A stretch of 64,000 nucleotides of DNA, from NCBI RefSeq assembly GCF_018449515.1, contig NZ_JAAVUQ010000012.1, forward strand, positions 1 through 64,000, given 5' to 3'. The notes below the pieces were generated by a model. It saw only the letters and a list, made by a program, of their open reading frames with translations, did no database searches and was not told the origin of the DNA. The stretch is from Caballeronia sp. dw_19 (lineage in GTDB: Bacteria > Pseudomonadota > Gammaproteobacteria > Burkholderiales > Burkholderiaceae). Shown piece after piece: positions 14,147 to 63,808 of the stretch. The stretch's first letter is position 1. Each line of letters opens with the position of its first letter. The translations under genes were made by a program, and so were the position numbers.

Positions 14147-14560
14147 GTTCGCACCGGTGGACGGGGTTTTGGGCCGGGCGGGTTTTGGGGCGGTGGGCGG
14201 GGTCTATGCCGGGGTGGTGCTTTTGGCGTTAGTGGTCGGGGTCTATGCCGGGTTGCTGCTTTCCATGTTAGTGGTCTGCGAGAGTCGGATTTTCTCTTTA
14301 TCACTATTAGCCACTGTGCGTGGCGGCACGTCATTTCTTTGTCCAAAGCGACAAAGAAACGAAGCAAAGAAAGCGCTTTAACCGCTCTACCCTAAGTGTC
14401 CACAGCGTGCAGTTTTGATTCATGGGTGCCCCAAAAGCACGGTGCTCGCCAGAGCCACGGATGTGTGAACCCCTCCTTCTCCGAACACCGATACCCACAC
14501 GCTTCGCCACCAGTGACTGAACCTGCCCAAGGACCACCCCGCGCTATCCGCGGATAACCG
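14147..14560 (+). repeat. Dispersed repeat, solo copy A (single arm)
   Basis: The copy begins 3 bases after the sdaA stop with the terminal motif GTTCGCACCGGTGGACGG (14147-14164). G/T-rich iterated DNA follows (GGTCTATGCCGGG twice), then the approximately 210-base core (14273-14482) that is also found at 30047, 30625, 62882 and 63461. The core contains a 10-bp inverted repeat TTTCTTTGTC/GACAAAGAAA. From 14482 to about 14556 it matches the inner flank of the right-hand arms of the other two loci (including GCGCTATCCGCGGATAA). A degenerate remainder may reach about 14620. No second arm follows, so this is a half element. Confidence 0.9.
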
Positions 14561-14720
14561 ACCATCAATATGCGCCCGCTCCGTCCATATCCCTCGAAAA
14601 ATCGTAGCCAGAACAGAACCAGCAAAACCCCTCCCTAGCGCCGGCGCCCCGCTCAAGCGTAAGCTATGAAATCCAATGCCCATCGCCGTCCGCGCGAAAC
14701 CTTCTGGGAGATTTCATCGC

Positions 14721-16427
14721 ATGACATCTGCTGTCTCGTCCCCCAACACCCTTCCGACCACCGGCGCGCGCCTGGTCGTCGATGCACTCCTGACCCACGG
14801 CGTCGAACGCGTCTTCTGCGTTCCCGGCGAAAGCTTCCTCGCCATCCTCGATTCCCTCCACGACGAAACCAGCCGCATCCAGACCATCGTCTGCCGCCAC
14901 GAAGCAGCAGCCGCAAACATGGCGGAAGCGATCGGCAAACTGACCGGGCGCCCCGGCGTGGCACTAGTCACCCGCGGACCAGGCGCCACGCATGCCTCCA
15001 TCGGCGTCCACACGGCATTCCAGGATTCCACACCCATGATCCTGCTGATCGGCCAATGCGCACGCGAACACATGGACCGCGAGGCCTTCCAGGAAATCGA
15101 CTACCGCCGCATGTTCGGGCAAATGGCGAAGTGGGTCGCCCAAATCGATGATCCGCGCCGCATTCCCGAATATCTGAGCCATGCATTCCACATCGCAACC
15201 TCCGGCCGGCCAGGCCCCGTCGTGCTCGCGTTGCCGGAAGACGTGCTGAGCGACGCGTGCGAAGCCGTGCCGGGTGCGCCGCGTTATCAACGTGTGGCAG
15301 CCTCGCCGGCACCCTCGCAGATCGCGCGTTTGAACGACATGCTCGCGGCATCGGAGAGACCCTTTGTCATTGCCGGCGGCAGCGGCTGGACGCCCGAAGC
15401 CACGGCGGATTTCGCGCGTTTCGTGGAGACATGGCAATTGCCGGTCGGCTGCGCCTTCCGGTTCCAGGACACGCTGAACAATAACCATCCGAACTATGCC
15501 GGCGATGTCGGCCTCGGGATCAATCCCGCCCTCGCCGCACGCATCCGCGATGCCGACTTGCTCCTGGTCCTCGGCCCCCGAATGGGCGAGTCGACAACCG
15601 GCGGCTACACGTTGCTCAATATCCCCAAGACCAAACAAACGCTGATCCACGTACACCAAGGCGCGGAAGAACTGGGGCGCGTGTATTCGGCGGATCTGCC
15701 GATCGTTTCAGGCATGCCGGAGATGGTGTCAGCGCTCGTGACACTCACGCCGCCCGCGGTCATCCCGTGGAGCGGCACTATTGAAGCAGCGCATGACGCG
15801 TATCTCGCGTGGCGCAAGCCGCGGCCCATGCTCGGCGATGTCCAGCTCGGCGAGATAATGGAGCAACTCAGCGAACACCTTCCGGCCGACGCCATCGTGA
15901 CGAACGGTGCCGGAAATTATGCGACGTGGCTGCATCGGCACTATGCGTATCGGCATTTCCGCTCGCAGGTCGCGCCGACAAGCGGCGCGATGGGCTATGG
16001 CGTGCCCGCAGCAATCGCGGCGAAGTCGCTGTATCCGGACCGGGTAGTGGTCGCATTTGCGGGCGACGGATGTTTCATGATGTCGAGCCAGGAGTTGGCC
16101 ACGGCCATGCAGTACAAGCTCGCGGTGATATTCGTGGTGGTGAACAACCAGCAATACGGCACGATCCGCATGCATCAGGAACGCCACTATCCGAACCGCG
16201 TGCACGGCACGGCGCTCACGAACCCCGACTTCGTAGCCTACGCCCGCGCATTTGGAGCACACGGAGAACGGGTGGAATCCACGGCGCAATTCATGCCCGC
16301 ATTCGAGCGCGCGATGAAAACGGGATTGCCGTCAGTGATAGAAATAAGGATTCCGAAAGATGCGAGTACCCCGGCGGCGACCTTGGATCAGGTAAGGCAA
16401 CAAGGGGAGAAGTTGCGGCAGAAGTGA
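14721..16427 (+). CDS. Thiamine diphosphate-dependent enzyme (acetolactate synthase-like)
   Basis: The 568-aa protein has the three-domain layout of the acetolactate synthase/pyruvate oxidase/benzoylformate decarboxylase group. The catalytic glutamate lies in VCRHEAAAANMAEAIG. The ThDP/Mg site is GDGCFMMSSQE...NNQQYG (GDG about 25 residues before NN). The true substrate is unknown; it might make acetolactate or decarboxylate a 2-oxo acid. No small regulatory subunit gene (ilvH) is near, which argues against the main biosynthetic IlvB. GGGAG at 14706-14710 supports the start. The next gene, an acyl-CoA ligase, begins 94 bases later on the same strand. Confidence 0.8.
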   Translation: MTSAVSSPNTLPTTGARLVVDALLTHGVERVFCVPGESFLAILDSLHDETSRIQTIVCRHEAAAANMAEAIGKLTGRPGVALVTRGPGATHASIGVHTAFQDSTPMILLIGQCAREHMDREAFQEIDYRRMFGQMAKWVAQIDDPRRIPEYLSHAFHIATSGRPGPVVLALPEDVLSDACEAVPGAPRYQRVAASPAPSQIARLNDMLAASERPFVIAGGSGWTPEATADFARFVETWQLPVGCAFRFQDTLNNNHPNYAGDVGLGINPALAARIRDADLLLVLGPRMGESTTGGYTLLNIPKTKQTLIHVHQGAEELGRVYSADLPIVSGMPEMVSALVTLTPPAVIPWSGTIEAAHDAYLAWRKPRPMLGDVQLGEIMEQLSEHLPADAIVTNGAGNYATWLHRHYAYRHFRSQVAPTSGAMGYGVPAAIAAKSLYPDRVVVAFAGDGCFMMSSQELATAMQYKLAVIFVVVNNQQYGTIRMHQERHYPNRVHGTALTNPDFVAYARAFGAHGERVESTAQFMPAFERAMKTGLPSVIEIRIPKDASTPAATLDQVRQQGEKLRQK

Positions 16428-62431: not shown

Positions 62432-62686
62432 GTCCCCTTCCGTGCTTTGTTTGAGCCTTTGTTTCAGCTTCAGCTCGGCGCGCTTTTGGCGCATGCCCCG
62501 TGATTTTGCTGGCGGTATTGGTCTGGGTGATTGCGCTGGTGCTGTTGCACTTCTTGCGTGCTGCACAATGGTGATGCAGACCTGCGGTGCATCAAGCGCG
62601 CACGCCTTATTGTCGCGCCAATGATGCAGCGCAATCATCGGGATTTGCACTTAGTTTTAAGGAGGTTTTTTCGTTCGCACGGGGAT
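62432..62686. other. Upstream region of transporter locus 2
   Basis: About 255 bases between livG and the repeat element, presumably with the operon promoter. I see no clear consensus boxes. A TCGTTCGCAC string at 62671-62680 repeats the end motif of the neighbouring element. Confidence 0.4.
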
Positions 62687-63808
62687 TTCGTTCGCACCGG
62701 TGGACGGTTTTGGCGGTGTTTCGGGTTAGGGGGCCGGGGCGGCCGGGGTTGCTGAGTTAGCGGTTGGGGTTGGTCGGGGTTGGTCGGGGTTGCTGGGTTA
62801 GCGGTTGGAGTTGGTGCTGGGGTGCCAGGTTCCGGGGTTAGCGGTCAGGGTCTATGCTGGGTTGGTGCTTTCGGCCTTAGCGGTCTGCGAGAGTCGGATT
62901 TTCTCTTTATCACTATTAGCCACTGTGCGTGGCAGCACGTCATTTCTTTGTCCAAAGCGACAAAGAAACGAAGCAAAGAAAGCGCTTTAACCGCGCTACC
63001 CTAAGTGTCCACAGCGTGCAGTTTTCATTCATGGGTGCCCCAAAAGCACGGTGCTCGCCAGCACCACGGATGTGTGAAACCCTCCTTCTCGCGAATCCTG
63101 ACACGAACACGCTTCGCCCCGTACGCTCTCGGGCAAGCACAATTGCCAATGAACCCGCACGGCCTCACACGCATTCGCTGCCGCGTTTCTTGGTGCGTTG
63201 GCCGAGCACGCGCTGCTTTTTTTGTGGGCTACACGGGCGAACGCATATTTACGGCTTCACGTCTTGTTGAGTTAGCGGCGCGGTCTGCGCGTTGTCTTCG
63301 TGGCTACGGCCCCATGCATCTTTGCGGCCGCGTTTCTTGGCGGGTTGGCGACGTGGTTCGGGGCGCGTACATATTTGGAGGGAGGTCGTCCGCGGATAGC
63401 GCGGGGTGCCCCTTGGGCAGGTTCAATCACTGGTGGCGAAGCGTGTGGGTATCCGTGTTCGGAGAAGGAGGGGTTCACACATCCGTGGCTCTGGCGAGCA
63501 CCGTGCTTTTGGGGCACCTATGAATGAAAACTGCACGCTGTGGACACTTAGGGTAGAGCGGTTAAAGCGTTTTCTTTGCTTCGTTTCTTTGTCGCTTTGG
63601 ACAAAGAAATGACGTGCCGCCACGCACAGTGGCTAACAGTGATAAAGAGAAAATCCGACTCTCGCAGACCACTAACACCGAAAGCAGCAACCCGGCATTG
63701 ACCCCGACCGCTAACGCTAGAACCCACCACCCCAGCACTGACCCCGACCGCTAACCCAGCAACCTAACCCAGAAACACCCCAAAACCCCGTCCACCGGCG
63801 CGAGCGAA
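62687..63808. repeat. Dispersed palindromic repeat element D/E (full copy)
   Basis: The 1122-base element has terminal inverted repeats: the left TTCGTTCGCACCGGTGGACG (from 62687) and the inverted right end TTCGCTCGCGCCGGTGGACG (ending 63808). The left arm core is 62882-63090 and the inverted right arm core is 63461-63670. The outer flanks iterate short units such as GGGTTAGCGGT and GGGTTGCTG. The centre (about 63170-63383) includes TTTGGAGGGAGG and GTCCGCGGATAGCGCGGGG, also seen in the B/C element. Single-stranded DNA or RNA of this element could fold into a hairpin of about 210 bp. Confidence 0.9.

Follow-up and report, generated by a model that had tools for sequence, protein, structure and literature searches.

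The stretch of DNA analyzed here, the first 64,000 nucleotides of contig NZ_JAAVUQ010000012.1 of the soil bacterium Caballeronia sp. dw_19 (positions 1 to 64,000, forward strand; referred to in its entirety as the window), contains three copies of a dispersed palindromic repeat, namely, a single arm and two full elements in which a left arm and a centre are followed by an inverted right arm (LR elements) (Table 1). The five arms that had been placed here by an earlier reading of the sequence (the original prediction) were all recovered, both by inverted-repeat comparison and by a covariance model built from the arms of several genomes (five full-length arms, E values of 4.6e-25 to 5e-27); five further partial matches of this model are the same palindromic hairpins read on the opposite strand. 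The arms of element 3 (62788-63090 and 63462-63764) form an inverted pair of 303 nt with 92% complementarity, those of element 2 form two adjoining pairs (30013-30156 with 30727-30870, 94%; 30151-30256 with 30626-30731, 92%), and the single arm (14221-14568) is 94% complementary to 63375-63722 over 348 nt and carries the right-inner motif at 14478-14507, in agreement with its predicted right-hand type. No transposase lies inside the window copies, as had also been proposed. The end motif of element 3 recurs beyond its right end, to approximately 63870 (window 63780-63880), which suggests stand-alone copies of a short terminal palindrome.

Table 1. Copies of the repeat in the window and parts of their arms (ORF, open reading frame; folding units located by covariance model)
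Feature	Position	Strand	Details
Single-arm element	14146..14600	+	Outer limits approximate; terminal motif and G/T-rich flank, core 14273-14482, right-type inner flank to ~14568; between + strand ORFs 12755-14143 (before) and 14676-16427 (after)
Folding unit, single arm	14297..14383	+	
Full LR element 2	29930..30960		Ends approximate, right terminal motif degraded; left core 30047-30256, right core 30625-30836 (inverted)
Folding unit, element 2 left arm	30071..30157	+	
Folding unit, element 2 right arm	30726..30812	-	
Full LR element 3	62667..63808		Left terminal motif doubled; left core 62882-63090, right core 63461-63670 (inverted)
P1 hairpin, element 3 left arm	62919..62933	+	GCCAC[TGTGC]GTGGC
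P1'	62935-62938	+	GCAC; can pair with P1 loop bases GTGC
P2 hairpin	62943..62968	+	TTTCTTTGTC [CAAAGC] GACAAAGAAA
Third purine tract	62975-62981	+	AAAGAAA; 3' of P2
Tail	62982-62988	+	GCGCTTT; can pair with P2 loop (AAAGC with GCTTT)
Left-type inner flank, element 3	63091..63150	+	Motif at 63108-63140
Right-type inner flank, element 3	63375..63460	+	Motif at 63436-63465
Folding unit, element 3 right arm	63560..63646	-	

A search of the genome (9,062,466 bases in 153 contigs, 9.06 Mb) with a 36-nt core pattern, allowing at most 3 mismatches, returned 175 sites compared to none for the reversed control, which excludes chance, and 84 right-inner and 88 left-inner motifs were found genome-wide. 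The 77 genome stretches taken for study contain 163 of the core sites, and from them we examined 77 paired elements (those of the window included), each with at least 2 kb on both sides, comprising 70 LR, 5 LL, 1 L? and 1 ?R pairs. The 63 LR elements with cores spanning under 700 bp were aligned, the 7 longer ones being set aside. The two cores hardly vary across this alignment and the centre varies more, while the inner flanks are conserved on the left and on the right but differ between the two sides; the different inner flanks noticed in the window, and the suggestion that the architecture is inherited as a unit, are thus borne out by a genome-wide family. The predicted ends stood in part: the outer G/T-rich flanks are present, but they consist of a variable number of units of approximately 36 to 40 bp, so that the element ends at no fixed distance, and terminal motifs of the form TTTCG[TC]TCGC[AG]C are common, though absent from some of the copies inspected. 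A coding role was rejected, since the ORFs that cross the arms are broken in every frame by indels of 1 to 2 nt between homologous arms. Arms were also seen at contig ends of the assembly (G000; e.g., C78:32-67 and C85:23-52), indicating that the repeat breaks short-read assembly and that the true copy number may be higher. One genomic element (L041, 4334-6341) is interrupted by a 366-amino-acid ORF that by eye resembles an insertion sequence (IS) transposase.

Relatives of the element were found in the family Burkholderiaceae and beyond. A single 951-base query matched 32 of 58 genomes of the genus, and the strict 36-nt pattern matched 3 of 299 sampled genomes of the family. A covariance model of 155 positions built from 20 Caballeronia arms (R1) gave matches in 39 of the 249 family genomes searched, belonging to 3 of 25 genera; a degenerate pattern located at least 108 stretches in named genomes, and the 80 listed all belong to Caballeronia, Paraburkholderia or "Burkholderia sp." A shorter model of the arm core alone (R2, 82 positions) found matches in 60 of 321 genomes at class level, spread over 50 of 243 genera, and in 36 of 249 genomes at phylum level, 19 of them from a single family outside the class and the others (our own genome included) from inside it, with at least five genomes matched in both of these overlapping searches. 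Many of the genomes matched by R2 hold multiple copies, and pairs on opposite strands recur, as in genome G865, with four pairs approximately 240 bp apart. Four plasmid records, all of Caballeronia sp. SBC1/SBC2, match the element, and the two features annotated in each record do not lie near it; a phage origin was rejected, since a phage collection gave no matches. The predicted folded arm core in distant bacteria, which the original prediction did not see and which appears common to many distant genera, points to an unrecognized structured element at gene ends.

The position of the element relative to genes was mapped using a simple codon-usage gene caller in the genome of strain dw_19. All 77 paired elements are flanked by a gene on each side, with 2 of the 77 overlapping one predicted ORF; 35 lie between convergent, 34 between tandem and 8 between divergent genes, while the totals for neighbouring genes in these loci, with the element-bearing gaps counted, are 95, 431 and 91, respectively. 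Convergent gaps are therefore strongly enriched (35/77 versus 60/540 other adjacent pairs, p = 7e-12, the 540 pairs still containing sites with a single arm and 4 kb shared by two overlapping loci), and the depletion of divergent gaps among the 77 elements is not significant (p = 0.30). A neighbouring gene that points at the element has its stop codon a median of 214 nt from the 36-nt core (n = 104), and LR elements take no constant direction with respect to tandem genes (14 same, 19 opposite, n = 33). Pairs from other Caballeronia and Paraburkholderia genomes, with identical copies merged, comprise 28 convergent, 28 tandem and 4 divergent cases (this count excludes 44 places at locus edges, 8 near-edge singles and 2 far singles). 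For distant genera, to which a cruder ORF rule was applied, 40 of 71 clusters were informative (the others being 18 inside predicted ORFs, 9 at edges and 4 far), 22 of them convergent, 15 tandem and 3 divergent; this convergent share again exceeds that of other ORF pairs (30/157, p = 1.4e-5), and 32 of the 40 were counted as single arms.

Each arm core consists of two tandem helix pairs in pseudoknot order, P1 with P1' and P2 with a helix between the P2 loop and a downstream tail (the loop-tail helix). In an alignment of 31 arms (A2), in which these four helices were counted, the paired cells amount to 100% for P1, 99% for P1', 94% for P2 and 62% for the loop-tail helix, and for the structure as a whole 51 cells with double changes were observed compared to 15.8 in shuffles (reached by 0 of 500). 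The complementarity between loop and tail extends over 3.84 bases on average, against 2.53 in between-genome permutations (0/1,000; 81 arms from 33 genomes), and over 3.68 against 2.21 in previously unused genomes (0/1,000), so that the covarying loop-tail pairing that characterizes an H-type pseudoknot is present in both genome sets. A P1 hairpin precedes P2 in 73 of 85 arms versus 18 of 81 control windows, and the P1 loop matches the stretch that follows it over 2.60 versus 2.02 bases (0/1,000), with 20 arms having one complementary base only. A later test made use of 20 genomes matched by R2 in the phylum search and unused before; it yielded 49 matches, one being the opposite strand of another, of which 47 have the hairpin and 40 the third tract. 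This test was not fully blind, as the stem threshold was lowered from 9 to 7 pairs and tract types were added, and R2 itself holds consensus letters of tract and tail, favouring AAAGAAA, but neither the mirror rule described below nor the loop-tail pairs.

The third purine tract mirrors the purine strand of the P2 stem. Among arms of the Paraburkholderia type (149 of 155 parsed, distinct sequences, own genome excluded), TTTCTTT stems occur together with AAAGAAA (109 arms), AAAGAA (7) or an extra-G form (2), TTTTCTTT stems go with an AAAAGAAA tract in 30 of 30 arms, and the one arm with a TTCTCTTT stem has an AAGAGAAA tract (1/1). In asymmetric arms of this type, the tract is a mirror and not a copy in 31 of 31, although the small number of arm subtypes means that these are not 31 independent events. 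Distant arms provided 159 distinct hairpins, 86 of them with a third tract; since the stem is palindromic, many of the other 73 are probably read on the opposite strand. Of 43 asymmetric tracts among the distant arms, 29 are mirrors, 2 fit both rules, 12 fit neither and none is a copy only, and the corresponding numbers in the later test (n = 16) are 9, 3, 4 and 0, with 4 of the 9 mirrors resting on a 6-base tract. As measured by the longest run of parallel triplets, the third strand matches the stem of its own arm better than third strands taken from other genomes do (7.12 versus 6.50 and 6.98 versus 6.42; 0/500 each).

The mirror tract, the stem and the loop-tail pairing together fit an H-type pseudoknot with a pyrimidine loop parallel to the purine strand. 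This fit holds on the strand read outward, the other strand giving a purine-rich third loop, and a parallel pyrimidine triple helix on the outward strand, which we infer from base patterns, would best explain the mirror rule. Telomerase RNA contains a pseudoknot with the same H-type order, in which a pyrimidine loop runs parallel to the purine strand and forms a pyrimidine triple helix; the predicted arm fold resembles this type as a structural analogy alone, with no homology claimed. Three arms of G865 have a T in the purine strand with a G across from it in the third strand; pyrimidine triplexes tolerate a G at a T-A pair, and we regard these positions as a lead for the triplex reading rather than a test of it. 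The flank through which a transcript would leave the arm is rich in C and poor in G, with 44% C and 17% G in our own genome (154 arms), 34% and 20% in other Caballeronia and Paraburkholderia, and 30% and 20% in distant genera. The 3'-end position, the two-sided symmetry and these exit flanks suggest a two-way terminator or protector.

We therefore tentatively propose, as a reading that is quite possible while short of probable, that the arms of this dispersed, non-coding inverted-pair repeat are pseudoknot/triplex modules of a two-way 3'-end element. The proposed mechanism has several components: (i) in each arm, P1 would pair with P1', followed by P2, whose loop would pair with the downstream tail, with the mirror tract in between; (ii) the outward strand, acting as RNA rather than as single-stranded DNA, would fold into an H-type pseudoknot in which a third strand running parallel to the purine strand completes a pyrimidine-motif triple helix of U.A-U and C.G-C triplets; (iii) located at gene 3' ends, chiefly between convergent genes, the two arms would give each neighbour an equivalent copy; (iv) a C-rich, G-poor flank on which Rho could load would be the exit for read-through RNA, which would then be trimmed back to the folded arm and protected by it; and (v) the repeat would multiply within genomes. 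The copies, their architecture and location, the covariation and the mirror rule are direct results, and the action as RNA, the triple helix itself, termination, protection and mobility belong to the proposal.

Several observations weigh against this proposal. The loop-tail helix has by far the lowest occupancy in A2, although its register differs between the two arm types and the alignment consequently understates the pairing; "further pair types" in A2 are not above shuffles (439 of 500 reach the observed value); when Caballeronia arms were analyzed by themselves, RNAalifold found double changes in 0 of 29 pairs; and nested folds are weakly better than shuffles (z of -1.6 and -2.0), as calculated with a folding tool that cannot score knots. 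P1 and P1' stand in pseudoknot order with almost no linkers and may be alternative hairpins. The tracts that are neither mirror nor copy (12/43 distant, 4/16 later test) do not follow the rule, and parallel exceeds antiparallel by longest run by just 48 to 24, with 52 ties (p = 0.006). In distant genera, 18 of the 71 clusters lie inside predicted ORFs. Finally, if the outward strand is the working RNA, antisense single arms should prevail, but single arms show no significant gene orientation (27 sense versus 19 antisense, p = 0.30, in a count that omits convergent singles of other Caballeronia and Paraburkholderia loci).

A rival that we judge somewhat unlikely, though worth serious attention, is a non-autonomous mobile element, as the original prediction had considered, whose arms would fold as single-stranded DNA for a recombinase encoded elsewhere (REP/RAYT or IS200/IS605-like) and whose 3'-end location would merely reflect where insertion is tolerated. 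All of the base rules described above are valid for single-stranded DNA too, the arms have no coding capacity, and hairpin counts differ widely between species, with 53, 11, 56, 65, 5, 9, 3, 4 and 2 in nine of the 19 genomes searched and 0 in the other ten. The element is also present and absent at one orthologous site, the gap of a convergent gene pair (locus L059), for which 57 of 58 genomes gave some match and twelve were read. There, our own genome carries the element; G033 has one beside the right-hand gene, with inner types that by eye look reversed, in a stretch with runs of N, the left gene being on another contig; next to the right-hand gene, G030 has C/A-rich units and a transposase-like reading frame; in G046, a half element whose core is a variant lies at a contig end (L131 1-101) and scores only 15.3 bits with R1, so that species-specific core types are likely missed by that model; and in G009 the stretch ends at a contig edge. 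The remaining genomes (G042, G034, G029, G021, G050, G055 and G032) have intergenic regions of 193, 239, 142, 71, 124, 123 and 67 bp, respectively, six of which hold a TTYGNTCG-like start motif with G/T-to-C/A sequence, and G032 has a different hairpin.

The element thus comes and goes, and its presence and absence, together with the unequal copy numbers, fit spread within genomes, which would make it mobile. On the other hand, the ends vary in length between copies, unlike the fixed terminal inverted repeats of a miniature inverted-repeat transposable element, and no clean insertion boundary or target duplication could be read among the twelve genomes at L059, where the empty sites differ too much; elementless orthologous sites do exist, but the ends cannot be defined by comparing them with filled ones. 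Mobilization by a RAYT-type gene was rejected, as the sole Y1-transposase match in the genome (PF01797) lies 19 kb from the nearest of 100 listed core sites (of 175) and adjoins none of them.

A less probable alternative, which we consider doubtful, is a large BIME-like DNA palindrome, serving either as a site for a nucleoid or topology protein or as an H-DNA mirror repeat that relieves supercoiling between convergent genes. BIME/REP sequences of enterobacteria and Pseudomonas are dispersed, intergenic and palindromic, often occur as inverted pairs and lie near gene 3' ends. Our element shares all of these features, so the paired intergenic layout behind the original BIME-like suggestion stands, but it is approximately 1 kb long compared to tens to a few hundred bases, and its composite arms are in pseudoknot order with a mirror tract. 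The convergent location, in our own genome and in distant genera, would suit such a DNA site, and motif 2 with the third tract forms a purine mirror repeat; yet the tracts are just 7 to 8 bases or so, and the P2 stem and the loop-tail pairing covary, although neither H-DNA nor a protein site needs them. A source of long double-stranded RNA, with the two arms folding on each other, is very improbable despite near-perfect inverted repeats of 200 to 300 nt, because two arms from the same element resemble each other no more closely than arms from different elements (94.5% versus 94.6%; 2,883 of 5,000 permutations reach the observed value), giving no sign of selection on the pair, and most informative distant clusters are single arms. 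The same percentages led us to reject homogenization between the arms of one element.

The element can be filed under no known family and belongs among the dispersed palindromic intergenic repeats. Rfam gave no match to the window elements, even at E values up to 10, and to this extent the original failure to name a family was correct; however, in a search of 20 loci, one arm of a Paraburkholderia-type relative (L148) matches RF02421 (Bp1_684) with 47.6 bits against a cut-off of 44, the other L148 arm and loci L138 and L149 falling below it. RF02421, a Burkholderia small RNA (sRNA) candidate predicted by SIPHT, resembles the outer half of the arm core: its match covers one half of P2, P1 and the outer flank, and its model is without the full P2 stem, the loop-tail pairing, the third tract and the inverted pair. 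A fragment of the superfamily has accordingly been catalogued already as an sRNA candidate. Open-licence literature, searched by title and the start of the abstract, with sequence strings included, gave no description of the element, and candidate 684 is absent from the main text of PMC3521395 and PMC5719362. The betaproteobacterial repeat BRE is intergenic, occurs in many Betaproteobacteria, was first found beside an sRNA, measures 75 to 91 bp with an average GC content of 69% and is often in tandem (Hot et al. 2011, PMC3110155); by that description, rather than by letters, BRE of Bordetella looks different from our element.

Apart from the repeat, the window holds tandem glycine riboswitch aptamers (RF00504) on the + strand at 6504-6625 and 6671-6805, as well as matches to the Burkholderia sRNA families Bp1_781 (RF02423; + strand, 34217-34446) and ncS01 (RF02865; - strand, 57284-57383). 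A direct repeat of 300 nt with 70% identity (54371-54670 and 55822-56121, 1,451 nt apart, inside long ORFs) probably represents paralogous genes.

The usual description of bacterial repeats between genes is that of simple hairpins. The superfamily reported here keeps a three-strand base rule and loop-tail pairing across many genera, which neither palindromy nor copying explains. It is possible, and we put this forward with more reserve than the proposal for the element itself, that the arms belong to an ancient and widespread class of structured RNA (pseudoknot with pyrimidine triplex) that is used as a gene-3'-end repeat across Pseudomonadota, singly or in inverted pairs serving both neighbours. 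If true, bacteria would have their own counterpart of the triple helices by which the 3' ends of some eukaryotic RNAs are protected, and a repeat that multiplies within genomes would carry it. If the fold forms in RNA, triple helices would be a common natural feature of bacterial gene ends and offer a testable handle on transcript stability, and if it forms in DNA, it would be a widespread natural triplex; either way, it would class many unannotated intergenic sequences in these genomes.

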